The notes beneath the pieces were generated by a model. It did no database searches. It had not been told where the DNA came from and worked only from the letters and a program-made list of their open reading frames with translations. The position numbers and the translations under genes are program-made. This document shows positions 3,727-52,700 of a stretch of 64,000 nt of DNA, piece by piece (the stretch's first letter is position 1; every line of letters starts with the position of its first letter). Location: assembly GCA_031763025.1 (NCBI GenBank), contig JASSKH010000010.1, forward strand, positions 7,001,901 to 7,065,900. The letters run 5' to 3'. The stretch is from Macrocystis pyrifera. Its lineage: Eukaryota; Sar; Phaeophyceae; Laminariales; Laminariaceae.

Positions 3727-5184
3727 GTGCGTGGGTGACGATGTGGCTGTGACGAGGGTAACCCCTGCTAACAACCCGCTCCTGAATACTGGGTTGTTGG
3801 GGGAAATCGTGGGTATATACGTCAAAATACGTATCGTGTAGAGCGTCTGAATACAACAAACTCCAAACCTCACACTCAGCCAAAACGGGCCAAAACTGGC
3901 CTTAAACGCGCCTGCGCCGCGTTTGCATCGAACAAGGAAGTTCTCAATTGCGGACGACGATCACAAGTGTGTGTGTGTGTTCTTCACATTATACCGTTCT
4001 TCTACTCGTCGACATCCAGCAAGCCCAGTGTCCGTGCTGATTCTTCACCCTAGGAAGATACGAGCTCTGTGGTCACAGACTACGACACAGAGATAACACA
4101 CCGTAATGCATTAACAGCCTACGCAATACCATGCCTTCGCACTAGGTGCGGCCGACACAACATACATACATACGCCAGCAACCAAAATACACCATAAAGA
4201 AAGAGCAGCAACGAAGAAACCAAACCGAAAAAGAAAAAGAAAAAGAAATGCAGACCGCGCTACGCAATTGTCAAGTCAACAACAACACCTTAAAGATCAT
4301 TTCTGTTCTCCAAGATTGCTAAACCTACTCACAAGATGTGAGATGATACACGAAACCCAACTGTTAATACCAGGTACTCCTACCCGAATGGATTTCAGAG
4401 TCGAATTTCTCCAGAGTACAGGAGACGCAAAGCTAACGAGGATGGTGGCCTTCGAAATGTTTCGTCGAGCATTTCCGTGGACAGACGCATCGCTATGTCG
4501 CTCGGCACTCTCTCCGTCATGGGGAAAGGAGCTTCGAAAGGCGTTGGAGGGGGTGTGTTTCTTACGTGTTACAAGTAAAATACGTATGATAGGTATCATA
4601 AGATACCTGATACCGTACCTGATACCAGGTACCTGGTATGTACGTACCGCTTTGACTGGTAATATAAGATTCGTTTGGTCTGCATACCTGGTATCATTTT
4701 CAAATATTTCTTATTTTCCCGGTCAGGGTGATGCGTGGTATGACGTGTAGTGATGGATAGCGATGATAGAGGAATCGAGTTGGACACGACATCTCGAGAA
4801 ATGAGAAACAAAATCAATACGTACACAAACAAACCGGGCTGCCCACTACTGGTTGAATCAGCCAGTACAGATTATAATGTCGAAAACAACCAGTACACTG
4901 GGTTTCAGTAGTATGCTGGTTTGCAGTGCCATATACAGCAGCAAGTTAGTTGCCTCTCATAGCTACCCCCTACTCTCTCCTCCGGAAACTCATTTTTGGT
5001 GGGTTTCCATTTCTGTACTGTAGTATGACGTGTTTCTTGTGTGAACGCAGTGTGCAAGATGAACTACATACTGGTGAATACACTGGCCAATCAGTAGATT
5101 ACTACTGCCAGTACATACTGCGCCAATGCCCAGCCTCGCAAAACTTTGGTATGTCGAGTACCAAATGCTGCTGCTGTATGTAGT

Positions 5185-14699: not shown

Positions 14700-14911
14700 T
14701 GCATGAAAGTCCGCCTCGCGAGCGGTTCTTAGCAAGATGCAGCTCCCCCGTTATGCGACTCGCCGAACATCTCACGGTGCTTCGGTCTTGGTGCAAGCAC
14801 TATCTGCCTGGTCGGTGAAACCCTTATGTTCTCCGTCCCGGCATTGTACGGATGCAAAGGTCTATGGTCATTCTACTACGACTACGTCCATTCATGACTT
14901 CACTACCCCCC
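14700..14911 (+). mobile_element. SINE-like element S1, 5'-truncated
   Basis: Carries the diagnostic core: AGCGGTTCTTAG, CGACTCGCCGAACA, GTGCAAGCA, CTGCCTGGTCGGTGAAA, TCCGTCCCGGCATTGTA, GGTCTATGGTCAT and a terminal C run. Followed at once by LINE end L1. Confidence 0.75.
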
Positions 14912-14987
14912 TTCCGTCTCGAAAGGTATACGTGGTCAATGGTCAAATGACCGAGTCAAGAAAAATATGAGTACCCCCCCCCCCCCG
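14912..14987 (+). mobile_element. LINE copy L1, extreme 3' end only
   Basis: TCTCGAAAGGTATACGTGG... to ATGAGTAC followed by about 14 C matches the last 75 bases of L3 and L4. It begins directly after the short C run ending SINE-like copy S1. Confidence 0.75.
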
Positions 14988-16690
14988 TCCGGAATGTACG
15001 GTACGGTACTTTCACGGCAGACTGTCAGACTGTACTCTCAACTGTGCAGGCTGGCATGCCGGCAAGGTATTGAATGAGGGTCGTTTGAAGTTCTGCAGTA
15101 CCACGGGATCGTTTCAACCTCCGGGGGGGGGGGGCATCCAAACGCTGAGACAAAGATAACCGTGGGTGACAGCGTGTGATGTACTGTTCACAGAAGACGT
15201 GGTAAGCTACGAGGGCGAGAACTAGCGCCCCCTACTGTGGAACTTGACTTGCTTTTTTAGGTATGTATGGCAGAACTGTGTCTGGTTCATTGCCGTTGTT
15301 TAGGTTTGTTTGATCACTTACGCGTGCGAGCAGTGTACACGCGTAGCTCCACTGACTGCGCAACGCGGCATGCTATTCAAGTATCACTCCCTTCAGCACG
15401 GTGTTGCACAATTCCACAACATGGGTTCTTCCAGATTTATCTATCGGTACGCTCATATAGCTACCCAAGCTCTAGCTCCAACGGCAAAAATAGCAGTGGC
15501 CTGCAGACTAGGACACTATTTTGGAGAGTACGGCTGAAATTATGTTGGCAGTGGTGCGGGTGGTGCGGCAGTCACCCCTGACACAAGCGCACCTCTAGCT
15601 AATAATAGTGGTGTTTCGTGAGCGTGCGTGGGCCACCTGCTGTGTGGGCGCTTGTGATTGGCTGTGCTGCAACACCGCGCGGTAGGGAGTGCCCACGACT
15701 AGGTCTAAGCTGTATTATTGCTTTCCCAGCAGGCTGGTGTGATATTGGTGCCAAGCTTCGCGAAGCCGGCCCAGGACGTAGGAGGGCATACAGAATCCTC
15801 GCTTCAACAGGCCAACCAAACGGTATGCTGACGTCGCCGCCCTTGGCTGTGAGGGTGCTGAACACTCCTACCGTGTAGTTTATCACAGTGCAAACCCCTT
15901 CGAGTATGCCTTCTAGCTATTGTTTGACGTGTCACCAGCTCGCGCTGGATCAATGCCACGGCGGGGCTATCACTTTTTGTTTCAACGTCTTCTAGCCGGT
16001 AGAGCTCGTCAAGTAAGCAACTACTCTATTACTGGTATACAGTAGTCAATATTTAGTTTGGGACTACTGTAGCATATAGATATCGGTCGGGTTGCGCGAA
16101 AAAGCTTCTTCGAAATCATGTTTCGGGTGAAATCATGCTGAATTCGTCGTGTGAGGAGCTCATAAAATAAGGCAACACCCCCAAGAGGCATAGCTCGCTG
16201 ACCGACCCATACGAAGGGAAGAAAGGGTTGCAATGCATTGTCCTCGATCGTCGTCATCGGTCTCGAAACATTTACTATTTACAGTCTCATACCACATAAA
16301 GTATGCACTATGCACGAACATTAACCTGCTTCACCTCTCTTAAAGCACTGCTGGGTGCGGACCGGCGTTTCTCTCTCCCGCGCGTCTGACACATTCAATG
16401 GGCGGGACATATGTACGGACAGACACATATGCATGCCCTAACAACTGCAGCAATGCCCGCGGGTGCGTCAGACCAAGACATCACCAATCAACGGTGCGAA
16501 GCACGCCCCAAAAACCTAGACCAAGAGGCAACCCAAGCACCCGGGCCGGCCATCTGAAAATCTTGTCTCAGGTCTCTACGTAGTGAGGCGCTACAGTACT
16601 ACAGGTGCACATGGGACGCCTAAACTCTGAATACACTGTAAACACGAACACTTGACTATGGAAAATACACAGTAGTTACAACGCGCCAAA
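14988..16690. other. Intergenic, no gene recognised
   Basis: C and G runs at 14,973-14,986 and 15,122-15,134; frames short. Nothing else supportable. Confidence 0.5.
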
Positions 16691-16696
16691 GGCCTA

Positions 16697-16813
16697 TTAC
16701 GGGGGACCGTAGCAAACAGGACCTATGGTACATGTGTACAAAAACCTACCTGGTATATACTTACCTATTTTTACTAACAATAATTGGTCATATTTACTAT
16801 TGGTGTCCCGTTA
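16697..16813 (-). mobile_element. MITE copy D, 117 bp
   Basis: TTACGGGGGACCGTAGC ... TTGGTGTCCCGTTA flanked by TA. Reverse orientation. Longer than the others because of an internal segment carrying TACCTGGTA. Confidence 0.75.
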
Positions 16814-16875
16814 TAGGAGATGAAGTGGGCGGACATCCCTCAAACTGTAGGTAATGCTTTGCAACCCCTCTCCTT

Positions 16876-16953
16876 GAGCGTCTCGAAAGGGATGTGTGGC
16901 AATGGTCGATTGACTAAGGGAAGCAACAATTGAGTACCCCGCCCCCCCCTCCC
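16876..16953 (+). mobile_element. LINE copy L2, extreme 3' end only
   Basis: GTCTCGAAAGGGATGTGTGG... TTGAGTACCCC and a C run: the same last 75 bases as L3. SINE-like copy S2 begins directly after its C run. Confidence 0.75.
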
Positions 16954-17292
16954 ATGGGAAATGATCGTATTGCGTAATGTGTAAATGGTAGGACACTTAC
17001 GAGGCAGCTGCATGGTATACCCATTGCTGCCTCTGGAAGTGGCCACACCAGACGACAAAACAAGTCCGGCGTTGTCATCCACACGCAAGAAAGTCCGCCA
17101 AACAAGCGGTTCTTAGTAGGACTCCGCGTCATGCGACTCCCCCAACACCTCACGGCACTGCGCGTTTGGTGCGAGCACTGTCTGTCTGGTAGATGAAAAC
17201 CCGCCGTGCTCTGTCCCGGCATTGTAGGGATGCCAGGGTCTACGGCAATACGACTGCTAACATGCATGACGTGGGCACCCTCCCCCCCCCCA
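16954..17292 (+). mobile_element. SINE-like element S2, 5'-truncated
   Basis: Begins within the 'ATGATCGTAT' middle section directly after the C run of L2 and continues through the standard core to a C run. L3 follows without a gap. Diverged (for example CAGGGTCTACGGCAATACG). Confidence 0.8.
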
Positions 17293-18177
17293 GGAAGTAC
17301 GACTAGCAGTACAGTATTAAGAGCAGAACTAGGAATGCACCCACTCCAGACAAATATAAGCACGAGGAAGTTGAAATGGCAATGTAAAGTAAGGAACACG
17401 CCAAAAAAGAGATTGCCAGCCATAGTTGATAGAGCTGTATGGGATAAAGTAACAAAAGGGCGAGCTGGAATAAGGTGGGATGGCGTAGTTGAGAAAGTAT
17501 GGAAGGGTATAGGGGGAAACCAAGAAGGGATGATGTTCGCCGGGAAGTTTGGGAGGTACAAGGCAAAAATAGAAGAAATGATAGAAAGAAGGGGAAGGCT
17601 AGTGCTAAGAAACAAGGTGGAATCGGGAAAAACACTTGACATATACGGGGGATTGAGGGAAGAAATAGCAATGAAAACGTATTTGCACTGTGCCCAATGG
17701 ACGTCGCGAAAACGCTGAGACTGTGCTTTCGTGTAGGTGGCCTGGATCTGCCAGAAAGAAGAAAGAGGTATACCAGTAGCCGGGAGGAGGAGGAAGCACA
17801 TGCACAGATGTGCCCGTGTGGCAAAGCAATAGACAGTAGAACTCACATAGTAGGAGAATGTGAACTATACAAGGAGGAACGGGGTGTGCTAGAAGAGATG
17901 AGGGAAATAGACGAATGCGACATGAAGGAGTTTGATGCACTGAATAGCAGCGAGAAAACGATCGCTATCCTAGGAGATAGAGCGGCCACAGGAGCTCAGA
18001 CAGGAAGGGGATAAGACTGGCAAAAAGTTTCTATGTAATACATGGAAACAATGTAATGAGCGCCCAATTGTTGGAAGTGTCTCTATTAGGAGTAGGAGCG
18101 GTGCTCCGTTTCGAAAGGGATACGTGGTCAATGGTCAAATGACTAAGGCAAGCAACAAATGAGTACGCTTCACCCCC
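17293..18177 (+). pseudogene. LINE copy L3, 3' fragment
   Basis: Same protein tail as L4: VLRAELGMHPLQTN, RLPAIVDRAVWDKVTKGRAG, YGGLREEIAMKTYLHC, then in another frame LERR-type PERRKRYTSSREEEE and the CPCGKAIDSRTHIVGEC zinc-knuckle motif. It starts immediately after the C run ending SINE-like copy S2 and ends at GAGTACGCTTCACCCCC. One frame change near 17,700. About 885 bp, so only the C-terminal part is present. Confidence 0.85.
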
Positions 18178-18199
18178 GAGGAAATTATACATGTACCTG

Positions 18200-18716
18200 G
18201 TATATATATAGGTTGGTTTGGCGTCATTTGTCGATGACGCTGTAAAACACGCCTCTCACCGCGTGAGCTAAACGGCCAGGGTACCGTTTTTTATTTTGTT
18301 TTTTGGTGGTTACCACGGCTGGCGAGTTGGATCATTTTCGTGCGGGGAGAACCTTTCTCCTCACAAGGGGGATGATCGTATCATGTAGTGTGAATATGGT
18401 GAGGCATCCACGAGGCAGTTACATAGTAAACCCATTGCTGTCTCTGGAAGTGGCCACACCAGAAATTAAATCAATCCATTGATGCTGTCATCCATGTGCA
18501 AGAAAATCCGCCTCACAAGCGGTTCTTAGTAGGCTGCAGCTCACCCTTCATGCGACTCGCCCAACACCTCACGGCGCTTCGCGCTTGATTCAAGCAATAT
18601 CTGCCTGGTCGGCGAAAACCCGACGTGCTCCGTCTCGGCATTGTAGGGATTCGAGGGTCTATGGTCATATGACTACGGCCATATATGATAATGAGTACAC
18701 CCCCCTCCTACGTAAT
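18200..18716 (+). mobile_element. SINE-like element S3, near full length
   Basis: About 515 bp from TATATATAGGTTGGTTTGG to a C run. Contains all sections shared with S5, S8 and S13: head GGTTGG..GTC..GACG, CAGGGTACCGTT, GAGTTGGATCATT, GATGATCGTATCA, GTCTCTGGAAGTGGCCACAC, then the core. No pol III A/B boxes were recognised with confidence. Confidence 0.85.
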
Positions 18717-19069: not shown

Positions 19070-19257
19070 CGTCTCCCAGCCCACACTCCATGCGACCCAC
19101 CGAACTCCTGACGTTTCGCTTCGCGCTTAGGTGCAAACAACGTCTGCCTGGTCGGTAAAAATTCGACGTGCTTCGTCCGGGCATTGTACGGATACAAGGG
19201 TCTATGGTCCTTCGACCACGGCCCTTCATGGTATCGGGCACCCCCCCCCCCCTCCCC
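19070..19257 (+). mobile_element. SINE-like element S4, truncated and diverged
   Basis: Matches the last 190 bases of the family (ATGCGACCCACCGAACTCCT, CTGCCTGGTCGGTAAAA, GGTCTATGGTCC) ending in a 12-C run. Confidence 0.75.
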
Positions 19258-19309: not shown

Positions 19310-20371
19310 TACTAATCCTAACCAAGCATGGTAGGGGTTCATTGTGGGCTCTGACCCATATGCCTCGCCGTCATAGTAAGATACACACATACGCATGTAT
19401 ACACGCATACGTATCCCAGGGCGCTTTTTTCGTAAATACTCGTTGTTCCCCAGGTGTAATCCCTTCCAGTTGTCGGCTGAGTAGCAGCAGAGCCGCCCCC
19501 CCCCCTCTGGTCGTTTTTCAGCGCATTCCTCGGCGGTTGCGTATACCCAGAGACCCCCCCCCGCCCTTTTCTAGTCCACAGATAACCGACTTGATCGTCT
19601 TTATCGCCAGGGCCACACGGGTGCGCGTTGCGTCGTCGTCACCAAACAATATGCGTGCGGCATGCATGGGTCATGCCCCCCCTCCCCCAACTCTAGTCCG
19701 CCCAGCAGGCAAGGTCTCCAGACACGTCTCTTCTCTGCCAGCGCCTTCCCGAGAGGTATGATTGGCCCAGGTAGACATCGTCCACGGATGCGTCCTTAGC
19801 CCCAGGGGAACATCACCTGTCGCGTTTCACAGTACCCATGAAGCCAAGGGACCCACGATGGTTCTGCTTCGAAGCATGATTGATTGATAGATCGTCGCCG
19901 TGTAAAAACATGTGTATGGCCAGGCAGTCACTTTTTTGAGACAGGACGGTGGCGGCGTCACTGTTGATCGGCGCTTGACTCTCATTGTTTACCATCAGGT
20001 ACCGTCGACATGGGGGATCAAGACCGCCGTTGTCCGGTGACTCGTGAATTATCGTATCCCTCATTGGTGAAAGCTGCGCGACCGAGGTCTGCACGACGAT
20101 ACACAGGGCGAAACCAAAGATAAATGAGTTGGCGGCACACACCGCGTTCTCTAAATAACGTTCGTGGTGTGGCCTGCGACCGACCGAGGTTTCCGCAGCA
20201 CACTGGCGTACAAAAGGCGAGACATACAAAACAAACAGAAATATATCGTGCAACGAGACGCTCGATTTTCATGGCAGCACACAATTACTGAAACATGTTC
20301 GTAAGTGTAGGTGAAACCAAAGTATAAATGTCTTGGGCTTCTGTTGAATAGGAGTTTGAGTGAATTAACTA
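19310..20371. other. Intergenic, no gene recognised
   Basis: C-rich tracts at 19,497, 19,553 and 19,676. A minus frame 20,253-19,813 has no recognisable family. Confidence 0.45.
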
Positions 20372-20474
20372 TTACGGGGGACCATAGAAAATAAGACCAA
20401 ATATTGTTCGTAAAAATAAGGAAATAAAAGGTTTTTTGTGTACTGTAGGTCCTATTTACCATGGTCCCCCGTAA
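20372..20474 (+). mobile_element. MITE copy A, 103 bp, TA duplication
   Basis: Terminal inverted repeats TTACGGGGGACCATAG and its complement at the right end (CATGGTCCCCCGTAA), flanked by TA on both sides as in Tc1/mariner-type elements. The interior is AT-rich, with no ORF. Confidence 0.85.
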
Positions 20475-21109
20475 TAATTGTTTTTTTCAGATGATGTGAA
20501 GTGTTCGTGCAAGCTGCCAGGTGCGAAAAACACCTGAAACACTGGGTATGCTGGCTAGAACGAGCTGACGTTAGCTGCACCCTGATATGCACGGGTCGCC
20601 CTGACAGAGTGGTTTGGCGTGTCTTCTCTCCGAAGAACATATCCCGGGCTCTGCGGCGTACCACATGCCAACCATGGGCATGAGTGGGCCGGGCGCGACA
20701 ACGATATACGGGGTACGATGCTGCGAGCTGGTGTGGGTACTCGGCACGAAGGACTGCAGCAGTACATATTGTACGCCGGATTACGTACGATCGGTATGGA
20801 TCATCACCAGCCAACGGTCATGGTAGAGGGGCTACGTTATAGGTTTCCAAACATGCGGAGGGGGCTCTATATTGCACGCCTTACTCACGAACCATTTTTT
20901 TTTAAAAAGAAACAGACTAGGAGTACGCCAACGTTGCATATATAGTTCCGAAAAAAAGGTTCGAGGCTCCTTCTTCGCTAGAGAAGAGCTCTACGGACCC
21001 CATGTGCCGCCCACAAACCCAGACTTTGAGAAAAAGTGTACGAACAACGACGCAAAGTGCTGCGAAATGAGGTATATGGCGTGCTTTGGCCAAACCATTT
21101 GGCGAGCTC

Positions 21110-28870: not shown

Positions 28871-29826
28871 TACACTGTTACGGGACTGAAGGTTGAACCT
28901 CCAAGGGTCTACCAGGGATCATACTCGTACGTTCAGCTCGCGCATTTCTGATTGAAGACTAGACTCTGCGCCGTGGCACACAGCAGTAGCTGCACCCCCC
29001 AAACTTGCGTACAGCTCGTGCAGCTCTGCTCTGCGCAGCCCGGTGCAATCTACATTTTCTTTCTTTATTTCCCCCTTTTTCTCTTCCGATTTATTTTCTC
29101 TGTTTTCTGTTTTTCTGTTTGCTTCGTTTGTTTCTTTCGTTTTCTCTCTTTCATAGAATATGTATGACGTGCGTGTCGTATCCAGTAGGATGACATGGCA
29201 CTGCATTGTCTACTCTGCTTACTGCATAACAATGTAATATATCTGTGGCGTAGTTTTGTGACCCCGTAACTTGTTTCTCTCTCGTAGGATTGAAGAATCG
29301 GCACGGACACTAGTTGCGCTGGATGTCGACGAGTAGAAAGCACGGTTTAATGTGAAGAACACACACATGCCTCCGCTGCAATGTCGGTGTCAGTCCACAT
29401 TACATGCTGGTCCCTTTGGCAAACTTGGGGAGCTGCACCGACGATATTTTTAGGACGAACTACTTGCAACTAGAGCAGGAGACGGTACTGCTCTTTGCAG
29501 CGATCAAAGCGATATGCACCGATCCTCGAATCTTTACGTACGAGTTCACCCGTTGGCCCCCCGCACAAACGCAAGACCAACCTCTCTACGTACGTATGGT
29601 ATCTGCCATGGAGCGGGAGGCCTATCCTGGTCGAGATCACCATCTCTGATCCCCGGCGCTTCCTTTGCTGTGGGCTGGGGCGTGTTGTGGTGGCGGTGAT
29701 GTGACATCAACTGCGCCTCGTTTAGTTACGGGAGCAGCGTGCTTGAAATACGGCTGTACATACCTGGTATGCACGATGTGTGATCTTGCCATGAGCCCGG
29801 GGTAATTCGCCCCCCCTCCCCCCTAG

Positions 29827-30347
29827 TATATATAGGTTGGGTTGGCGTCGGTTGGCGACGACACTGTAATACATGCCGCTCACTACTTGAGCTAGACAAT
29901 CAGGGCACCGTTTTTGTTTGTTTGGCGGTCGATCACAGCTGGTTGCCGAGTTAGATCATCCGTGCGAAGTAAACAACCTTTATTCCTCACAAGTGGGAAT
30001 GATCGTATCACGTAGTGTGTATATGGTGAGGCACCCATGAGGCAGTTACGTAATACTCCCATTGCTGTCTCTGGAAGTGGCTACACCGGAAATTTAATTA
30101 ATTCATTGAAGCTGTCATCCTTATGCAAGTCCGATTCACAAGCGGTTCTTAGTAGGATGCAGCTCACCCTTCATGCGACTCGCCGAACACCTCACGGCGC
30201 TTCGCGCTTGGTGCAAGCAATGCCTGCCTGGTCGGTGAAAACCCGACATTCTCCGTCCCGGCAGTATAGGGATGCGAAGGTCTGTGGTCATACGACTACT
30301 GCCATGCATGAGATCGAGTGCATCTCTCTTATTCAGTACACCCCCCC
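29827..30347 (+). mobile_element. SINE-like element S5, full length
   Basis: Starts TATATATAGGTTGGGTTGG directly after a C-rich tract (29,810-29,823) and ends in a C run at 30,340-30,347. Best preserved copy with S8; it lies just upstream of the candidate first exon of the LRR gene. Confidence 0.85.
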
Positions 30348-31842: not shown

Positions 31843-33312
31843 GTGAAAACCAGTGTGTGTTCGAGTGTTTTTTTCGTGTGTTGTGAAGGAGAAGGCCTTT
31901 GTCGGGTGTTGATGGGAAAAAGGGTGGGGGCGCCCGATGCAACGGTGTCGCTTGCGTTTGTGACATAGTATGCCATGGGGCTTCTCCCGTACATGTATTT
32001 ACACACATATGGTGGTGGTCGTCGTGATACACCTGGATTTTGATATGATGCAAAGCAGATTATAATTATTGTGTGGTTGATTGTGCTGTGCTTGTGCTGT
32101 GCTTGTGCTGTGCTTGTGCTGTGATTGTGCTTGTCGCTGTTTTACGACGGGATCGTGTGTACGTGGTTTTTTATACGGCGGAGTTTTTTTTTATGTTGTC
32201 CAAGGCAGGGTGCACCCGCTGTTCCTTTTCTCCGCCACGGTTTGTGTCCGAAGGTATCCGGCGAAGTCGTGCGCGGAACTGGAGGACGTTAGGTTGAGCT
32301 GGTGCCCGCATCTCCTAGAAGTGGAAGCGCTTCTGCTCAAGATCAGGAAGGCGGGTGTCGGGGGACAGGTGCGAGAAGCTACCGGTTTTGGTTGTGGTAT
32401 TGGTGATGATGGTGATGGTGGTGGTGGTGGTCGTGGGGGTGGTGTCGTTGAAGGTGTTGATGTGGTTGGGGATTGTAGTGATTGTGGCGGTGGTGGTGGT
32501 GGTGGTGGTGGCGGTCTTCGGTGGTGAAGAGGAGAATAGTAGTGGTGATGGCGTGGGGAGCAGGGATGGTGGAAGTGGAGGCGGGCAGGAGTGGTGGTAT
32601 TTTGTTTTTTGGGGGGTAGAGGTGGAGGCAGGCAGGGTTGATGGTGATTGGAGGGGGATATAGGGGCGGTGGTGAGGTTCATGGCATAGCCAATGAGGAG
32701 AGGGGGGGGGGGGGGGCATGCACTGTCTTTTTTCCGAGAGGACGATTACAGGTCTTGATTTACGGCCGCGCGAAACTGTTTTTGAGGGGCCGCGCGAAAC
32801 AGTTTTTGAGGGTATGGACAACGGAACGGGGAACACAATGACACGGACGGTTGCTGAAAACGAACATAGTATCTGCCCGTCCCGTGTCAGTTTCTTTCCG
32901 TTCGGTCCCGACAACTTTTTTTATATTGGGCTGGTTACAGTTTTTTCTCGGTCTCGCCTTCTTCCCATGCCGCGTCGATTCCTTCCCGGTCTCAAACCGT
33001 TTTCTTCCATAACAAAAAAAACAGCTATTCCGGAGGACCGTAGTAAATAGCACCTGCGGTACACACAAAAACGTATATATTTCTTTATTTTAGTAACAAA
33101 ATTTGGTCCCATTTATTTTGGTCCCCGTAGTACACACTTGACGCGCTCGCTTTTTCTCGACTCCCTCCCTTCGCGTGCCGCCGCCTATCCTCATGTACGG
33201 ACTACTCCACCGCCAGGGAGACGAGGCGTGCCCACTCAGGTCTTTGGACGTAAGCGGCAACGAAACCGTTTCTGACGGCATCTTTAAGGTTGAGTTTTGG
33301 TCGACCTTGGAG

Positions 33313-33441: not shown

Positions 33442-33480
<39 letters not shown>

Positions 33481-33741
33481 ACGCCTCACAAGCGGTTCTT
33501 AGTAGGATGCAGCTCACCCTTCATGCGACTCGCCGGACACCTCACGGCGCTTCGCGCTTGGTGCAAGCAATGTCTGCCTGGTCGGTGAAAACCGTCCCGG
33601 CATTGCAGGGATGCGAGGGTCTATGGTCATACGACTACGGCCATGCATGAGATCGAGTACATCTCTCCTATCGAGTACACCCCCCCCCCCCCCCCCACAT
33701 GTTTTGGTGTCCTTAGCCCCGTTGGAGTTGCACTCGCTTTT

Positions 33742-36700: not shown

Positions 36701-39700
36701 CGTATAGTGGTTATTTCCATGTAAACGGGGGTACCCTGTGAAGTCGCACCCCCCCCCCCCCCCCCCCCGCCCTCCCTGTTCCATCCCCCGCCCCCCCGTG
36801 CCGAAATCGGATCGGACGTCAGGTATTTCCGACATGGCCGTGTCAAATTTCATTATGGAGAGCCAGGCCATGGCGTCGGGGAGGCTACGGTCACTCCGTC
36901 TAGGGGGGTGCCCTATCGGGGGGCTAACTGCTCAGGTGGGTGTTTGTTGGACCCTTTGTCGGTCTCGGGAACATACCCGTCGGTATCAGTATTCGTCGGT
37001 CTCTGTACCCGTCGGAATCTGTAGTAGTCGGTCTCGGGATATTCCCCTAGGTATCGGTCTCGGTATATATATGTATCTATATATACCCTCCAGGTTCGGT
37101 AATCGTCGGTCTCGGTACCAATCGGACGCACAGGTTATCGTTGGAGTCGGTGTATACCCGTCGGTATCGGTTCCTGTCGGACTTTTGTGGCCCATCGGAC
37201 TGGGTATCGGAGGGCGTGCATACGACTGTGCTGGAACGATTTCAACCACACTCGACTATAGACCCTAATAACTCTACGCACGCACAACCTAAGCTACAGT
37301 GGCAGTGGCAGTGGCAGTGGCAGTGGCAGTGGTAGGCCAGACCGCTGGAAAAATATTTTTGGAATGTATTGAGCAGTCGTGCACCACCAGATCCAAGGTA
37401 TCAATAAATCAATCATGTTACCGCTGAAGCTGGGCGAAGTGGTACACCATGTGGTAGACCATGTGGTACACCATGTGGTACACCATGCACTGTAGGTCGT
37501 CGGCGTAGGCATTTTTTTTTTTTTTGTGTATATTTTTCGGTCCGGGTGCTGGCCGTCCTCGTAAAGTATACGTCGGCCGGCTTTTGGACAGCTTTCGGTT
37601 TGTCTTGGTTTCTGCTGGTGTTTCTCGCTGTCGGTTGGTCTCGGTATTCGTCGGTTGACTGTATCCGTCGGTCTCTATTTCCGTCGGTTTCACGGCTTAC
37701 TAGCCGGCTTGTCCCGATACTTTTCGGACTGTCTCCATATTCGATAGACATCGGTAATATATCGGTATTATTACGGGGGACCATAGTGAATAGGACCAAA
37801 TGTTGTCAGCAAAAATAGGTAAATATAGGTTTTGGTGTGTACCGTAGGTCCCATTTACTATGGCCCCCCGTACTAGTGGATACCGGTATCTGTCTTGTCT
37901 CCCTGTCCGTTAAGATTCGTACCCGTCAGGGTCGCTGCTAGCAGTGGCGGCTTTGTTGGCACCGCCTTCAAACATGCATCTCCCCAACCCTCCACCCCCC
38001 GTATGACAGGAAATATCACCCCTGATACTTTTCTCACGGGGCAGGCTGGAACGTATCGCTCTGGCCGGGAATATACTATCCATTTTACACTAAATTTACA
38101 GAAAAAAACGTGGCCTGTATTCCCGTTTTTTGCGTGGTACCAGTTACCATGTATGCTTCTGTTTAATAGTTGTGCGGGGGGACTCTTTGCTCTACTGTAG
38201 TATGTGTACCACACCAAGCATGTACCTGGTAAATAGTAGTTTCGATAACTTTTTTCAAGATTCTTGCAGCTTGTTTTTATCATTTTTAGTTTGTCTGTTG
38301 TAGCGTAGCGGCCACGAGAACGTGGAGGGCGATATTGTCGACCGTTCGTCTACTGGTGTGTGTGTATGCATCAGTAGTGCCGGTCCCTCTATAGTGCTGG
38401 TATGTATGTATGCGCAAGCTAACAACACCGGCACTGTTATAGCGGCGACCGGCACTAATTACTCCGCACACGGCACTGATTACTCCGCACACGGCCACAC
38501 TGGTTGCTAGTCCCATCTGGGGCAAGCGATTCTGCAAACACGATATGGCGGGCAATCGGCACTACTCAACGGGCAATAGAGGGAGCGGTACTGCTGTGCC
38601 CAAGTCGCCTAGCAAGAGTTCTTGCGGCAAGTAGTTTATACGGGTACGATCATGCCGTGCTGCGCGCGTGTCGGCTTGTTCCTTCCATTAAGCTTTCAGA
38701 CACGCATGCCAGGTACAAGGTTCCCCTCCGGGAGGTGCCGTATGAATAGGGGAGTGGCGCAAGAGCGAACTAATATTCGTATGCAACCCTGACCCTGCAC
38801 ACTTGTTGTGTAGAAGTAGTACCTGCATCCACCCATCATTTTAACGTGTAGACACACACTACATATTTTTGAGGACAGACTACTATATACTGCTGTTCGC
38901 GGAATTAGTGTGGGACCATTACTACAATAATATAAAATAGGGTAGCGATAAGTGGATAATAAATTGATCCAGCCGACTCGCGGCGATTAATTCATACAAA
39001 AAAAGTTGCGCGAAGACGAGGTTGCGCCATAATACTTTGTGACCGGTTGAGTAAGGTACAGCACATACATACTGGTACAATGTATATATATGTTCCCCAA
39101 AATAAATGTTTCTTGGTGCTCAGGGTAACATCAAGGTTTCACAGATAAATGCTCGGCGAGAACAAATCGTAGTCCGAGCACTCTGAGAGTATTGGAGTAC
39201 TGGCGGCAAAAATATTGCCAGCACTGAGAAGGCCCAAATACTGAGAGTAATGAGAGTGTGAGCAGTACCGAACCCGAGAATACAGGAAGAAAATATGTAC
39301 CCGCAGTAGTATCGAAACTCGAAATACTTGGAGTAAAAAGGCAATATGTGCAGTACAGAACCTCGAGATACTGAGAGTATTCGCAGTACATGCATATATA
39401 TTCCTTGCAAAAGCGTGTCTCGAAATACTGCCAGACTGCTTTACGTGCTCAAGTTGTCTCCGGCGAAAGTGGTTTGCTCCAACTCCCACTCGTGTGGGAC
39501 TATCTAGTGTGTGTTTGGTGCCGAACGCTGGGCCTGAGAATTAATTGTCGACGCGGTGCACAGACGGTTGAAGTATACATGATGCTCACTCGAAGTATAT
39601 ACTGGACATATTGAGGGTATTTCATTTAATTTAACTGCGAGTACCGAGGCTTTTGCCGAGAGAAGCAGCAGTACGAACACTACCAACGGACGAAATGCTG

Positions 39701-42700: not shown

Positions 42701-45700
42701 TCATTTTTTATTTTCCTGATGGCTCACGACACAAAGAGAGGACGAAAGCGTCTTCCTCTGCCCCCCCGTTCCATCGAAGTTGTCATCCATTTGCAAGGCC
42801 GCCTCGCAAGCGGTTATTTATTACAGTACGGTAGTAAGATGCAGCTGACCCACCCTTCATGCGAGTCGCCGGACACCTCACGGCGCTTCGCGCTTGGTGC
42901 AAGCAATGTCTGGCTGGTGGGTGAAAACCCGACGTGCTCCGTCGCCGGCATTGTAGGGATGCGAGGGTCTATGGTCATACGACTACGGCCATGCATGATA
43001 ATGAGTACACCCCCCCCCCCTATTATATATAGGTTGGGTTGGCGTCGGTTGGCAACGACACTGTCCTAAAGCATGCCGCTCACTACTAATTCTTGAGGTT
43101 GACAACCAGGGTGCCCTTTTTCTTTTATTTTTTGGCGGTCAGTCACAGCTGGTTGCCGAGTTAGATCATCCGTGCGAGGTGAACAACCTTTACTCCGCAC
43201 AAGTGGGAATGATCGTATCACGTAGTGTTTATGGTAAGTCACCCATGAGGCAGTTACATAATACCCCCGTTGCTGTCTCTGGAAGTGGCTACGCCGGAAA
43301 TTAAATTAAATTATTGAAGCTGTCATCCATATGCAAGTCCGCCTGACAAGCGGTTCTTAGTGTGATGCAGCTCACTCTTCATGCGGCTCGCCGGACACCT
43401 CACGGCGCTTCGCGCTTAGCGCAAGCAATGTCTGCCTGGTCGGTGAAAACCCGACATTCTCCGTCCCGGCATTGTAGGGATGCGAAGGTCTATGGTCATA
43501 TGACTACGGCAATGCATGAGATCGAGTACATATCTCCTATCAAGTACCACCCCCCTTCCCCTCCCACCTCCTACTCCTTCCGCCCCCCCCCGCCACCCGC
43601 TCCTCCTCCCACCCCCGTCCCACCCTTTTAATCTCTGCTGGCGTGCTCCATTCCCCTGCCCCATGGCCGCCGACGTTTTGTTTTTTGTTTTTCTCTCCGG
43701 CCTCCGCGTCCCCAGCTGTCCTGCCGTGGCGCCTGGCAGTGCACCCAGCACCCCGCGGTGGAGACTCTGTCGATAACGCTGAGCCTCCTTCCGGGCCCCG
43801 ATGCCGTCGGCCCCGATAAGCGAGCTGGGCGGGCCGCCAGAGAACGGCCACTGGCTCGTTGTGGTGGCGGCGGCGGCGGTGGTAGAGCTGGAGGAGAGGA
43901 GGAGGAGGAGGAGGAAGCAGCAACCGTAGTTCGGAACGGCATAGCAGGGCCGCCGTGGAGGGGGGGGGGGGTTGAGGGAGGGGCAGAGGCTGCTACGCAC
44001 GCGTCCCATGGTGTCAGCGATGGCGTTAGCGGTAGCGGTAGCGGTAGCGCCGCTAGTGGGAGCAGGCCGGAGCAGTGGGCGTGTTCACGGCGCACGTGTC
44101 TTCATGTCGAGAGAAGGTGGGTGGGGAGGTGAGCGGGCGGGCGGGGGGGGGGGGCGTAGTCATGTGACCATTGACCACGCATCCCTTTCGAGACTGAGAA
44201 CCGTTCCTACTCCTAATAGAGACACCTCCAACAATTGGGCGCTCATTACGTTGTTTCCATATGTTACATAAAAGTTTTTGCCAATCTTATCCCCTTCCTG
44301 TTTGGCCGTCTGTGGCCACCATCTATCTCCTAGGATAACGATCGTTTTCTCGCTGCTATTCAGTGTATCAAACTCCTCCATGTCACATTCGTCTACTTCC
44401 CTCATCTCTTCTAACACATTCCGTTCCTCCTTGTATATTTCACATTATCCTACTATGTGGGTTCTACTCTCTATTGCTTTGCCACACGGGCACATCTGTG
44501 CATCTATTTCCTCCTCCTCCCGGCTACTGGTATACCTCTTTCTTCTTTCTGGGAGTTCCAGGTCCCCTACACAAAAGCGCAGTTTCAGCGTTTTCGCGAA
44601 GTCCATTGGGCCATACAAATACGTTTTCATTCCTATTCCTTCCCTCAGTCCCCCGTATATCTCAAGAGTTTTTTTTCCGATTCCACCTTGTTTCTTAGCG
44701 CTAGCCTTTCCCTTCTTTCTATCATTTCTTCGACTTCTGCCTTGTACCTCCCAAACTTCCCGGCGGACATCATCTCTTCTTGGTTTCCCCCTGTATCCTT
44801 CCATACTTTCTCAACTACGCCATCCCACCTTATTCCAGCTCGCCTTTTTGTTACTTTTCCCATACAGCTCTATCAACTATGGCTGGCAACCTCTTTTTTG
44901 GCATGTTCCTTACTTTATATTGCCATTTCAACTTTCTCATGTCTCTATTTGTCTTGAGTGGGTGCATTCCCAGTTCTGCTCTTAATACTGTATTACTGGT
45001 CGTACTTGAGCATCTTAGGATTTTTTCAGCTGCTGTCATTTGTACTGTTTTAATCTGTTTTATGAGTTTCGCGTTCCCTTCCCATACTTCTCCTGCACAT
45101 TCTAGCTTTGGTACTATCATATTCATCAGGATACATCTCTTAATCCTAGTGTCAACGTGCAAGTATGTTACGATCTCATCTTGCCTACTTGTGCCTTACC
45201 CTTTCCTATTACTTTTGCTGTATCTGTATCCTAAGAGCAGTCTTTTGATATCTCTACGCCAAGGTATGTATACTGGTCTACGATCAGCAATTTATCCTCT
45301 CCCCACTTCCAACTGAAATTTACCGAGTTTACCTTATCTTCGTTACAAACAACTACTGCGCATTTCTTGACGTTCGCCGTCACCCTCCATTTCCTGCTGT
45401 ATTCTAGCGCCTTCTCTATTTGTTTCTGCAATCCTTCGGGTGTTTCTGATATCCCCACGAAATCATCCGCAAACATCAATCCCGACACCGTATCTTCCCC
45501 TACCGTGACTCCCAGCTCTGCTGCCTCGACTGCTACCATCAGATCGTCAATATATATATATCTTGAATAAGTTAGGTGACAACGTACATCCCTGTGCAAC
45601 TCCTTGTAAAATACCAACGTACTTCGATATTTCCCGTCCAGCATCACAGCACTTCTCGCACATTCCGTCATCTTTTTCATAAATTCTCCACAACTTCCTC

Positions 45701-48700
45701 TGATTCCTATTTCCCACAGTTTTTTTCCGCAATCCATTTCTCCATACTGTGTCGTAGGCTTTCTGCACATCTGGAAAGAAGCAGTACGTTGTTAGTCCCG
45801 CGTCTTTCCTACCTTGAATAATCTTAGCTACAGTAAGGTGTACATTTGGTCTATACAGCTACGGTTTGGCCTAAACCCTGCTTGCCCTTCGCTTATTCTG
45901 TGTTCCTTCTCCATCATCGTTCCCATTCTATCGTTCAAAATCTTACAAAATGTTTTGCCTACTGCTGTGCTTAGTAGCGTTGTCCCTCTATAGTTCCCCG
46001 GGTCAGCCTTATCTCCATTCTTGAATAAGTTTACTACTACTCCTTCTCTCCACCTCCTAGGTGCGTAGTCGTTTTTCCGTATCCAGTTACACAACCTAAC
46101 CATGATGGTAAGCATTCCTTCCCCCCCGTGCTTCATAAATTCATTCACTATTTGTTCTGCCCCTGCTGCCTTTCTATTCTGAAGTTTAGCTACACACTTC
46201 TTTGCTTCTTCCCTTGTGAACTCTCTCTGTAACCCTCCCAAACCACTGTCTTCCCTTTCTGATGTCGCGATGGCGGGGGGGGGGGGGGGGAGGGGTGTAG
46301 TCGATGTCAGGCATGGCCGTAGTCGTATGACCATAGACACTCGCATCCCTACAATGCCGGGACGGAGCACGTTGGGTTTTCACCGACTCGACAGACATCG
46401 TTTGCGCTAAGCGCGAAGCGCCGCGAGGTGTTCTGCGAGCCGGATGGAGGGTGAGTGAGCTGCATCCTACCGCGAATCGCTTGTGTTGCGGACTTGCATA
46501 TGGATGGCAGCGTCAATTAATTGATTTCATTTTCTGGCGTGGCCACATCCAGAGACGGCGGTGCGGGGGGGGGGGTTAACTCACATTGTCATGTATAGCC
46601 TTAGGCGTATGACCATGGAGCCTCGCACCCTCACCCTTACGAAGCCAGGACGGATTACACCAGCGTTTCACCGACCAGGGGTGCTAGAAAAGTGACGGCA
46701 ACGACCTGTCCGTTGGCGGTGCGTCCGGCGTTCACGGGTCTTGCTGTTGTGGTTGGGCGGCGGGTGGTATTTCGCTGTTGGCCCTGCCGAGTTGAATGTG
46801 TGTGCGTTGGGCACCCTTCCCCCCCCCCCCCCCCCTCCCTCCCTAGTGTCTGCCTGGTCGGTGAAAACCCGGCGTGCTCCGCCATGGCATTGTAGGGATG
46901 CGAGGGTCTATGGTCACACGACTACGGCCATGCATGATAATGAGTACACCCCCCCCTTACTCCGCACAAGGGGGATGATCGTATCACGTAGTGTATATGG
47001 TAAGGCACCCACGAGGCAGTTACATAGTAAAACCCATTGCTGTCTCTGGAAGTGATCACACCAGAAATTAAATCAAATAGTTAATGCTGTCATCCATATG
47101 CAAGAAAATCCGCCTCACAAGCGGTTCTTAGTAGCATGCAGCTCACCCTTCATGCGACTCGCCCAACACCTCACGGCGCTTCGCGCTTGGTGCAAGCAAT
47201 GTCTGCCTGGTTGATGAAAACCCGACGTGCTCCCTCCCGGCGTTGTAGGGATGCGAGGGTCTATGGTCATACGACTACGGCCATGCACGACAATGAGTAC
47301 AGCCCCCCTCCCCCCCGACCAGAATGAGGATTTATCGCACACGGGTTCGATCATTTTTGCATTGTTCCGTTCTGTGTCATTTTTACGCCCGCCCCCTTGT
47401 GCGATATCTCCGACACGTGCGATACTGAAAAAAATTACTGCCGCTTTACAGGCGCGGCGGTGCTGCTGTATGCAGAATCCGTGTGCCGATCCAATGAAAA
47501 CAACTTCCTAATGTCTACGTGTGCATCGCCAACGGTGCCGTGCGTACGGCAGGGGACCCTCGAAGATAGGTAGCGACAATAACAGCCTACCGCGACAAAC
47601 CGCCGGAGCTCTGCAAGTGTCCAGGAGGCACCACTTCGAAGTGCGTGTGTTTTCCCGGAGTTTTGGCACACCCTGTGCGATAACTCCGATACCTGCAAGG
47701 AAACCGAATTACATCATCTCGGTTTTTGCTTTGCAAACGAACCCCATGTGCGATAACTCCCGATATGTGCGATAACTCTCCTCCTCAAGGTACGTACTGG
47801 TACGCATTACAGCTCTCGCTACACTCCCCCCCGCATGAGGGAAGCCGTTCTTCCCCCACCACAATGCATTGTGTTCCTCGTCACTCCAATACAACGACAG
47901 GCCACATTATTGCACGCCCCTCCCTCTTGCCCACCCCCCCCCCCCCCCAGTTCGACATACGAGGCTTGCAGGGGACCGTGCGATACCTATCTCCTCCCGC
48001 TCCCGCCCCCGCCTCCGCCGCGAACTGCGGGCTCGCCGCCCCCCTTCGCCTCCGGTTCTCCTTCGCCCTCCACCTCTTTCAGCGGCGGCGGCGGTGAGAC
48101 TGGCCGTCGGCGCTCGCCTGGCGCGGCGCAGAACGGGACGTCGGCGGCGGACAGCCCTTTGCCGCTGCCGGCGGTTCCTTCGGCGGGCCCACTCAAGCGG
48201 CTAAGGCTGGAGCTTGCCGTCGACCCGGCGGAGGCTATTGCAGCGGCGGTGGTGGCGGGCGTTGTAGGCGGCGGTGGTGAAGAAGGTAATAGGGAGGCGG
48301 GACACGCTCAGGAGCAGGAGGGGCAGGCGCTGGAGCAGGAGGAGCAGGCAAGGTCGGGGTTGCGGTCGGGCTGCGCGCTCCCCCTTCGGAAGCTCGCCCC
48401 GCTGCTTCCAACCGGGCTCGAGGTGCTCGATGTGTGGTCCTGCAACGCTCCGCCTCCTCCTCCGCCGCCGCCGCCGCCGCCGCTCCCGCCGATATCAAAG
48501 TCGATGTCAGTGGCGCAAGGCGTAGCGTCAGAGGGGACGGGGGGCGCTAGCCAGGAGAGTCCTCGTAAAGGTCGGTGGCAATTCGGGAGCGGGGGGGGCG
48601 GGGACGGGGGCGGGGGTGGGAGTGCGGGTGGGGTTTGGCTACCTGCGGCAAGTGGCGACAGGGAAGAAGCTCCGGCGTTTGACGGCGCCGGGTCGAGAAG

Positions 48701-49749: not shown

Positions 49750-52700
49750 CGGCCGGGCAGTGCCGCACCGCGGGCAGGGGGCCACCGTCAGCCGGGAGGA
49801 AGAGCTTGGGGAAGCTGATGCAGCTTCTACTGCAAACTGTGGCGTGGGCGGGCCACCGGGTCAGTCGTGGAGGGACAGGGCGGCGGGACAAGTTTCTGAG
49901 GGCGAGGGGGTGGCGGCAGCGACGACGGCAGCGGCAGAGGCGGCGGAGCTGGCGGCGGCGGGGGCGGCGTTTTCTGGCGGTTGGGAGGACGGAGCCCTGA
50001 CACTGTCGAGCGAGACGTTGCGGGGTTTGTTCTTGGCTGGAGAGGGGGCCTTGACGCGGCTGACGCTGGCCTGTCGCCGGCTGAAGAGGGTGGAGGTCGT
50101 GCACTGCCCGAGTCTCGGGTGAGCTTGCGTTTGGGTTTTGTATTTACTTGGGTCTGTCGTGTGTATGATGTCGTTGCGTTGATGGAACTCGTTTGCGAGC
50201 TTAGAGGAAACGGGTGAATATGTAAATAACGATTACAGCAGCGGTCATGCATAAAGAGCTGGTTGGATCACTAGGGGGGTTTCCACTCTGTTGATGCAAG
50301 GTTAAGGAAGGTGTTGTGCGACACGCACACAAACATGGCACTAAGTCGTATTGCTGGGGCCCCACATCAAAGGGGTCATAGTGACCGCCCTTCCTCTTGC
50401 TGGCGGTCGCGATTTTTTGGGTCGCGAGCATCAGGTAGCCCGCGAGTGGAAGGGGGGCTTCGCGCGGAGGCTACCTTTCCGTGGGAGCTTATGCCCAGGG
50501 GGTTTACTCACGTCCATACACGACCGTAGTCGTATAACCATGCCTGGGGAGGGGTACTCACTACCATGCATGGCCTTAGTCGTATGACCATAGATCCTCA
50601 CATCCCTTCAATGCCGAGACGGAGCACGTCGGGTTTTTACCGACCAGGAAGACATTGCTTGCACCACGCGCGAAGCGCCGTGAGGTGTTCGGCGAGTCGA
50701 GTCGCATGGAGGTTGAACTGCATCCTACTAAGAACCGCTTGTGAGGCGACCATGCACATGGATGACAGCTTCGATGAGTTGATTAAATTTCCGGTGTAGT
50801 CACTGCCAAAGACAGCAATGAGGTACTATGTAACTGCCTGGTGGGTGCCTTGCCATAAACCTAGTATACGTGATGCAATCATTCTCCTTGTGCGGAGTAA
50901 GGGTTCTCCACCCCGCACAAATGATCTATAACTCGATCGCCAGCTGTGACCGACTGCCAAAATAAATAAATAGCGGTACCCTGATTGTCTTGGTCACGTA
51001 GTGAGCGGCATGTTTCACAGTGTCGCTGCCGACCGACGTCAACCTAACCTATACATATATATTTGTCGGGGGAGGGGAGGGGGGGCAGTACAGTAGTAGC
51101 GTAAACCGGTGCTGCGCGTTCCTCCGTTTCTTGACAGCAACCGTGTCGATTGCTTCATGCGACGGCGGCGGTGGCAACCCCCTCCCCTCGGCAGGGAACC
51201 ACGGGAGGTTATCACCAGGCGTGCTAGCGCACGCTCTCTTGCACCCGCCGGTAGGAAAACCTTGCTTTTGATTTGGGCTTATTGCCTAGCGGTGCCCCTG
51301 CCCCACCCCAACCTTCCCCCGTTCCTTGTTTAGTCGGGTGATATATCGTCTCCCGGCGGTCGATCGTAGCGCCGGGGAGCACATCGCGTGCTTCGACCTG
51401 GCCGCGCAGACGTTTTCTCCCCCATGGTCCTTCCTGCCCTCCCTCCTCCATCCCTGTCATTTTTCCTCGTAGGGTTCGCGAGTGAGCCTCTACTCCTATA
51501 ACGGTCTCCCTTCTGCCCTCCCTCGTTTTCCGTGCTTCGTTGTCACACTCCCTCCCCCCTCGCTCCCTCCCTCCCTCCCCTCTTTCCCCCCCCCCTCCCC
51601 CCCCCGCCTCCTCGCCTTTTCCGCTCAACCGTGACAGGGAAATCGAAGTGTTTGCGAAGCCTGCGTTGGTGGATGTGCGGGTGGACGACTGCCGACTCGG
51701 GAACACGTGAGCGTGCGCTGCTGCTGCTGCTGCTGCTGCTGATGTTTGCTGCTGCTGCTACTAGCAGACTCTTGTTCCGGGATTAGACGCGCTGGAAAGC
51801 CACAACACAACAGCAGTCGCTTTTTAATAACCGTGAAATAGGCCACCCTGATCGGAAGTATATAGCGTGCTTTTTGATGTTCACGCGCAAACACCAGACG
51901 TACTCTACAGTACAAGTATATATTTCTGAAACAGCGAGGTTAACCCTTCAAGCATCTATTGTGCCGATATAGCAAAACAGACAAGCTTTCCTGTGGTCAA
52001 ATTATCGTTGCCACCCCCCCCCCCCCCCAATCACTGCGTTAGCTACAGTAGACCATCAGGGTACCGTTGTCGTGATGGCGGTTACCATGGATGGATGCCA
52101 AGTTGGATAATGTTGTGCCTGGTGGAGAACCTTTAACTCCGCAGAAGGGGGACGGTCGTATCGTGTGCTTTAGTCGCGAAAAGGGCCCTACACTGTGTCA
52201 AGCAGTGTGTCTATACAAGCGTGGAGGGGGTTTTCTGGAAGGGTAGGATGCCTTTGCCGCGACCCTATGATGAGTAAGTCGGTCATACGTCAGTCAGTCA
52301 GACGGACAGTCAGTATGCCAGTCAATCAGTCAGTATATCAGCCAAGTCAGCGGTCAGACAGGCAGACCGGCAGTCAGTCAGTTAGTCAGTCAGTCGGCAG
52401 GCAGGCAGTCAGCCAGTCAGCCAGTAACACGTCAGTCAGTCGGCAGACAGGCGATAAGCCAGTCAAGTCGAGTCAGTCAGTCAAGGTAGCCAGCCAAGGA
52501 AATCACCCATTCGAAGTCAAGTCGGTCTGACAAAGCAGTCGGTCAAGGCAGACAGTCAAGGCAGTCAGTCGGTCAGTCAGTCAGTCAGTCAGTCTGTCAG
52601 TCAGCAAGTCGTCCGGTCAAGAAGTAAAGCACAGTCAGCGAGTTGGTCCGACCAGTCAGTCGTATGGGATGGATTATTCACCCCGTACTTGTCCCCACTG

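Follow-up and report, generated by a model that had tools for sequence, protein, structure and literature searches.

How does a chain of retroposed sequences arise in which each copy begins at the C-run that closes the one before it? Such a chain lies at 14.7–18.7 kb of a 64-kb stretch of Macrocystis pyrifera DNA, here called the window (C190:7001901-7065900 in the 537-Mb assembly of 223 contigs that we searched). It is built from copies of a long interspersed nuclear element (LINE), which we call L, and of a shorter element, S, which ends like L in a run of C. We propose that both are inserted, by the machinery of L, into C-runs that were already in the DNA, and we put the probability of this reading at about 0.8. 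That the C tail of the RNA pairs with the target is a further step, for which the odds seem to us evenly balanced.

The chain and its two elements

The preliminary description of this DNA, made from the letters alone, gave the order as S1, C-run, L1, followed by L2, C-run, S2, C-run, L3 and S3. This order is present at 14703–18705:

14703..14897, + strand: S1, 5'-truncated S, about 82% identical to the reference (BLAST)
14906..14911, + strand: C6 run between S1 and L1
14913..14974, + strand: L1, tail-only L copy (L 4869–4930), with a C13 tail at 14974–14986
16879..16937, + strand: L2, tail-only L copy (L 4871–4930)
16942..16949, + strand: C8 run, part of the L2 tail and immediately followed by S2
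16948..about 17281, + strand: S2, 5'-truncated old S (17% from the majority sequence); the alignment stops at 17255 and the remaining 3' end was assigned by eye
17282..17291, + strand: C10 run, the S2 tail, 3 bp before L3
17295..18166, + strand: L3, 5'-truncated L copy (L 4056–4930)
18173..18177, + strand: C5 run, the L3 tail, followed by GAGGAA and S3
18184..18699, + strand: S3, essentially full-length S (from reference position 4), with a C6 tail at 18700–18705

The gap between C-run and element is 1 bp for L1, 3 bp for L3 and 6 bp (GAGGAA) for S3; S2 starts inside the end of its run. The break points of L1, S2 and L3 had been placed exactly at the ends of C-runs, and we see them there within 0–3 bp; the junction coordinates here and below are BLAST ends, with a possible error of several bp. 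The claim that each element is 5'-truncated at a different place did not hold, since S3 starts near the 5' end of its family, and L1 and L2 share a start at L 4869–4871.

L is a LINE, that is, a non-long-terminal-repeat (non-LTR) retrotransposon, with an APE-type endonuclease and a reverse transcriptase. It is ~4.93 kb long, with the 5' end CGAGCATGAAGG and the 3' end CAAATGAGTACG-Cn. The two domains were each found in a different copy, RVT_1 in P0003 from L030 (E = 6.3e-26; three-digit numbers of this kind denote loci) and Exo_endo_phos in P0004 from L029 (E = 2.4e-9). The 5' starts of L copies are scattered along the element, while the 3' end is constant at GAGTAC-Cn. Among matches from named organisms, the closest to the L reverse transcriptase is an Ectocarpus protein, with 58% identity over 99% of the query. 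Against solved structures, the reverse transcriptase piece matches R2 and ORF2 of the L1 retrotransposon about equally and the endonuclease piece has no match, so these comparisons give no clade call for L. The Ectocarpus similarity, together with what is described of the Ectocarpus elements in PMC12477816, suggests that L may belong to RTE-X.

S is ~520 bp long, with the 5' end TATATTATATACCTGG and the 3' end ATAATGAGTACA-Cn. The terminus GAGTAC(A/G)Cn is common to S and L, and their last ~110 nt are alike (they align with a score of 69, whereas 300 shuffles gave at most 35). No RNA polymerase III (Pol III) head was matched in Rfam at E ≤ 1 in L072–L074, L073 being a locus where an S copy begins at the 5' end of the family, though S may carry a Pol III head of another kind. 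S is therefore SINE-like (SINE, short interspersed nuclear element) and non-autonomous: it has the 3' end shared with a LINE but no recognized Pol III head. Thus, of the LINE/SINE pair first proposed, the C-tailed LINE with a tail-sharing partner stands, and the SINE in the strict sense is unsupported. In the 200 kb of samples taken outside the window, 28 copies of S and L together make up about 4% of the sequence.

Some features of the two elements recur from copy to copy. Twelve L copies begin at L 4864–4871, ~65 nt before the end and at the base of a predicted hairpin (window 14913 and 16879; two in L002; one each in L006, L023, L026, L028, L032, L037, L038 and L045). These remain from 16 listed starts after removal of four that are S copies (77–78% identity), and starts at 4880 may also be S. 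The recurrent tail-only form is perhaps a mobilized small RNA species or the product of a fixed reverse transcriptase stop. S likewise has repeated start points, at about 410–430, around CTGCCTGGTCGGTGAAAACC, and at 484–487, near CTATGGTCAT. A tail variant, a doubled motif of the GAGTACATCTCTCCTATCGAGTACAC type, closes some S copies (L026, L041, L044 and window 33640–33680). A 3' stem-loop is predicted in both S and L, with both-side changes at 4 of 11 pairs. These changes mostly split S from L and so come close to a single contrast, and single folds of the stem-loop were not better than shuffles (z = −0.95 and −0.80).

C-runs at the 5' junctions

Are C-runs found before S and L copies in general? 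We used three samples. Set A is the window plus 20 systematic 10-kb samples (264 kb in all, with 48 S/L copies annotated by BLAST). Set B comprises 27 of the other 39 top matches to S, chosen by that similarity, and set C comprises four loci with long L copies, taken from the L matches by similarity; selection for sets B and C thus rested on the element and ignored the flank. Some sampled loci are related by duplication, so the p values are merely indicative.

A C-run of at least 5, in the orientation of the tail and lying between 18 bp before and 3 bp after the 5' junction (the strict test), is present at 84 of the 117 testable copies in all sets. The comparison with random expectation, which the preliminary description had called for, comes out clearly: 567 of 20 000 random positions of set A pass (2.8%), and a G-run of at least 5 is found at 0 of the 117 copies. 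By set, the counts are 26/45 in A, 46/58 in B and 12/14 in C. With a looser C-rich rule applied within 30 bp upstream of the copy, the count rises to 88 of 117; random positions pass in 3.3% of cases, and by the same rule for G no copy passes. Under this rule, 72 of 86 copies with at least 86% identity to the reference pass and 16 of the remaining 31; the lower share among diverged copies is as expected if old junctions decay. The C content upstream of the copies peaks at 64–67% between −15 and −6. The C-rich flank is not confined to chains, being found before 46 of 71 copies that have no S/L neighbor upstream and before 42 of 46 that have one.

The exact 5' end of S occurs 327 + 319 times in the genome on the two strands. 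For the reverse strand, where there is one entry per site, as inferred from the rows listed, CCCCC ends 0–3 bp upstream of 193 of the 319 starts; the background in set A is 1.0%. The corresponding forward count, 567, was left unused because sites were entered several times. Among the first 19 listed starts without CCCCC, 15 have a C-rich flank that is impure or slightly farther off, such as CCTCCTCCCTCCC, four of these 15 being one duplicated locus. The matches at L060, L061, L063 and L071 have no C-rich flank and may not be S at all.

Two other arrangements were seen at S starts. In L072 (C20:48100-48450), the first ~40 bp of S with its flank is tandemly repeated ahead of the S start, and on several small contigs S starts are paired 81–98 bp apart.

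C-runs at uninserted sites

Did the C-run precede the element? For 12 insertions, each with a C-rich 5' flank, we joined the two flanks and used the product as a query against the genome. Uninserted paralogs, which match across the join, were found for three of the 12 sites; for the other nine, no such match was obtained. At the three sites, a C-run (of 4–22) stands at the insertion point in all 28 uninserted paralogs examined, which shows that the C tract is older than the element. The counts of places are lower bounds, since in these searches the best 40 of 103 and the best 40 of 258 candidates were scored.

For the L073 site, 15 of the best 40 places match across the join, and the remaining 25, where the match falls into two pieces, carry the insertion; the run is C5–C6 in all 10 uninserted paralogs examined. 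At the L009 site, where the insertion is of L, at least 8 places match across the join, and the run is C7–C9 in the six examined. At the L042 site, there are at least 16 such places, with C4–C22 in all 12 examined, the two poorest having C5 and C4; the paralog in L097 has C9, and that in L100 has C5 as read from the alignment. Thus, the target C-run was present before the insertion at these three sites.

A different picture was seen for an S insertion in L048 (C218, 11.3–12.1 Mb). Both of its flanks recur in several copies, solely as separate pieces with about 500 bp between them, which could mean that one duplicated segment took the insertion with it.

Chains of neighboring copies

If we call copies within 60 bp of each other neighbors, then sets A, B and C together with L073 contain 46 same-strand neighbors and no opposite-strand neighbors. 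Set A alone has 14 same-strand neighbors and none opposite, where random placement predicts 0.48 same-strand neighbors and none of 4000 shuffles reaches 14. Outside the window, set A still has six same-strand neighbors against 0.28 expected (0 of 4000 shuffles).

The members of a chain can be compared in age when they belong to the same family. Twenty such pairs have at least 40 comparable sites, and seven of them differ in divergence at p < 0.01, without correction for the 20 tests. The unequal divergence argues for separate insertions in any order rather than a single event. We looked for a rule of order within the chains and found none: the older member lies upstream in nine pairs and downstream in 11. 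One misaligned pair, a tandem L tail in L006 (45.6%), was kept out of this comparison. In the same locus, L006:2077-2382 consists of three tandem ~121-bp units, each with an L tail and a common flank, which points to a probable local tandem duplication of an insertion.

Which C-runs are used? Of the 173 C-runs of at least 8 in set A, 33 form the tail of an S or L copy, and 18 immediately precede such a copy. These 18 comprise eight tails and 10 other runs, or nine and nine if the run at 17282 is taken as the S2 tail. A copy thus follows 8 of 33 tail runs but 10 of 140 other runs (p = 0.008); with the 17282 run counted as a tail, the figures are 9/34 and 9/139 (p = 0.002). The target is therefore C-runs generally, and the elements' own tails are used more often, perhaps owing to the length of the tails. 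The original idea that the family retroposes into its own poly-C tails was right about C-runs and the single orientation; the tails are not the sole target. Very long pure C-runs also exist, such as the C38 run at 33443–33480 of the window and a run of 121 at L023:6711-6831.

Mechanism and alternatives

How would a copy reach a C-run? The single orientation, the C-run on both sides, the frequent 5' truncation and the APE-type endonuclease with its reverse transcriptase are all in keeping with target-primed reverse transcription that starts from a nick in the G strand, and we regard this as the likely path. The L endonuclease would nick the G-rich strand at or in the G-run, and the freed 3' OH, ending in G, would pair with the C tail of an RNA of either element. 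The reverse transcriptase would then copy the RNA, often halting early, and the finished insertion would have the left part of the C-run before it and a C tail after it. S would use the enzymes of L. Each insertion would leave a C-run on both sides and hence a new landing site, and repeated rounds would build head-to-tail chains of mixed age.

Several observations weigh against insertion into C-runs. C-runs of at least 8 are common (173 in the 264 kb of set A). Non-C flanks, which the preliminary description expected at most copies if it were wrong, are in the minority overall, with 88 of 117 flanks C-rich, but under half of the copies of set A outside the window (12 of 26) pass the strict test, which would mean either that other sites are also in use or that old junctions have decayed. 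There is no C-run before the full-length L in L029, nor before an L tail with 99% identity (L023, 9223). The uninserted sites come from queries with C-rich flanks only, and they are paralogs 72–82% alike to the query rather than alleles, so exact target-site duplications are unreadable from them. At the insertions themselves, a permutation test for target-site duplications gave p = 0.13; in a second test, the first bases after the two C-runs match (p = 0.001), while full repeats of the bases between numbered 3, no more than the 3.4 given by chance.

Given insertion into C-runs, what selects the site? Pairing between tail and target is the simplest reading of the identity of tail base and target base, and a preference of the endonuclease alone would give the same junctions. 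In its full form, the tail-guided proposal is that the C tail of S or L RNA selects the site through G-runs, so that the family would make its own landing sites and its chains could grow without limit; we consider this an even bet. The strongest competitor is that the endonuclease of L simply prefers C/G-runs and that the C tail is a mere product of priming there. All of the orientation and uninserted-site data fit this equally well, and target-specific APE-type endonucleases are described in the Tx1 and R1 clades in the portion of PMC4640811 that deals with them. The impure or short C tracts at uninserted sites (C4–C6, CCCTCCCCCC) weakly suggest loose pairing instead of a fixed site, and we judge targeting by the endonuclease alone to be possible, though the less probable of the two.

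A whole chain could also be inserted at once, if the reverse transcriptase passed from one C-tailed RNA to the tail of the next. Several neighbors are ≤13 bp apart, and some pairs are equally young (for example, 1.0% and 1.7% in L032), so template jumping may explain some of the young pairs. As the main cause it is unlikely, because seven of the 20 same-family pairs differ in divergence, C-rich DNA precedes 46 of the 71 copies that have no neighbor upstream, and the C-run is present at uninserted sites. Even less probable is that the insertion itself produces the 5' C-run, through untemplated addition of G to the end of the cDNA at otherwise random sites. The 5' run at L009 (C16) is indeed longer than in the uninserted paralogs examined there (C7–C9), but at three sites the run already stands in uninserted paralogs, and S/L tails precede another copy far more often than chance predicts. 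Recombination or segmental duplication between C-runs is the least probable origin of the chains: insertions were duplicated along with their surroundings at the L048 site on C218 and at the L053/L054/L056/L057 locus, but chain neighbors are cut at different points, several are unequal in age, and C-rich DNA also precedes copies without an upstream neighbor. On the evidence of ages, uninserted sites and neighborless copies, we set these last three aside as main causes.

Other copies and repeats in the window

The window contains further S and L copies, several of them in chains:

19077..19236, + strand: S copy, with a C12 tail at 19241–19252
29825..30325, + strand: S copy after CCCCCCCTCCCCCCT
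33443..33480, + strand: C38 run, separated by 5 bp from the S copy that follows at 33486–33664
33486..33664, + strand: 5'-truncated S copy, with a C17 tail at 33680–33696
42773..43009, + strand: S copy, with a C11 tail at 43010–43020 abutting the next S
43021..43532, + strand: near full-length S at the C11 run (S-C11-S chain, 42773–43532)
46849..46948, + strand: S copy, with a C8 tail at 46949–46956
46955..47301, + strand: S copy directly after the C8 run (S-C8-S chain, 46849–47301)
46584..46679, − strand: S copy, first of an S-C11-S-C16-L chain (46679 down to 44157)
46296..46559, − strand: S copy after the C11 run at 46565–46575
44157..46265, − strand: L copy after the C16 run at 46275–46290, with part of the reverse transcriptase domain and a C12 tail at 44143–44154
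50557..51062, − strand: near full-length S copy after a C-rich tract

Two other kinds of repeat were seen. A dispersed repeat of ~110 bp, resembling a miniature inverted-repeat transposable element, with ends such as TATTACGGGGGACC, occurs at 16694–16816, 20369–20476, 33015–33126 and 37769–37876; it has many copies in the sampled loci, some with an expanded C-run in the end. At 63134–63489, there are short overlapping direct repeats, about 68–75% alike.

Relation to known elements and significance

Where do L and S belong? We class them with the target-specific non-LTR elements of the simple-repeat type, and what seems to be new is the C-run as target; a search of open-licence papers found no description of a poly-C-tailed or C-run-targeted LINE or SINE. 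A near likeness is in Ectocarpus, where the relevant part of PMC12477816 describes RTE-X LINEs and a ~600-bp non-autonomous element, RTEX-N1_Ec32, with a shared 3' end and a 5' part of unknown origin. This is again a brown-algal LINE with an abundant short element sharing its 3' end. By this likeness, S and L may be counterparts of the RTEX-N1 and RTE-X elements. The comparison is one of descriptions rather than sequences, and C tails, C-run targets and chains are not mentioned in that part of PMC12477816.

Microsatellites are targets of other non-LTR elements, among them Togen, in (TG)n, and some HERO families, which PMC4640811, in the section concerned, places in groups with a restriction-like endonuclease. 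L and S share with these an abundant simple repeat as the insertion target, but differ in having an APE-type endonuclease, a homopolymer of C, a non-autonomous partner and their own tail as a target. Bov-B LINEs (RTE) and Sauria SINEs are, like L and S, an APE-type LINE with a tail-sharing SINE, and in the account given in PMC13295347, their target duplication begins with the same base as is found in the microsatellite-like 3' tail. We set this weaker agreement of tail and target in RTE LINEs and their SINEs beside the pairing proposed for S and L. The preference reported there is for Tn-TA rather than for long homopolymer runs, and duplications are found in about 80% of I. braminus copies, whereas none are established for S/L.

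Telomeric LINEs, as outlined in a section of PMC10088271, include SART/TRAS, Zepp and the telomere elements of Drosophila; they target repeats, as S and L do, and in Drosophila form head-to-tail arrays. They lie at chromosome ends, whereas the window is at 7.00–7.07 Mb of a 15.7-Mb contig, and the best 40 S matches are spread over many contigs, with many of these matches lying megabases away from the contig start. An array of telomeric LINEs is therefore rejected as an identification. L1 and Alu elements nest in A-tails, and these tails can serve as targets again. In the L1 retrotransposon, too, the base of the tail is that of the target, but it is A/T instead of C/G; insertion is at 5'-TT|AAAA-3' sites, according to the summary in PMC13295347. 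Tails other than A are known in plants, for example (TTG)n and poly(T), in the examples given by PMC3747384.

What would C-run insertion mean? A tail and a target made of one simple sequence offer a natural case for separating pairing of the RNA tail from choice by the endonuclease in the selection of a LINE site. They also provide a way for retroelements to make targets for themselves and to assemble interleaved arrays. If the tail-guided proposal is true, L would be the first poly-C-tailed, C-run-targeted LINE with a partner; it would also be an APE-type LINE that is highly selective in its target and may lie outside the Tx1 and R1 clades. With S and L at about 4% of the DNA sampled outside the window, such chains may have a hand in shaping much of the genome and may make repeats harder to annotate in this lineage.

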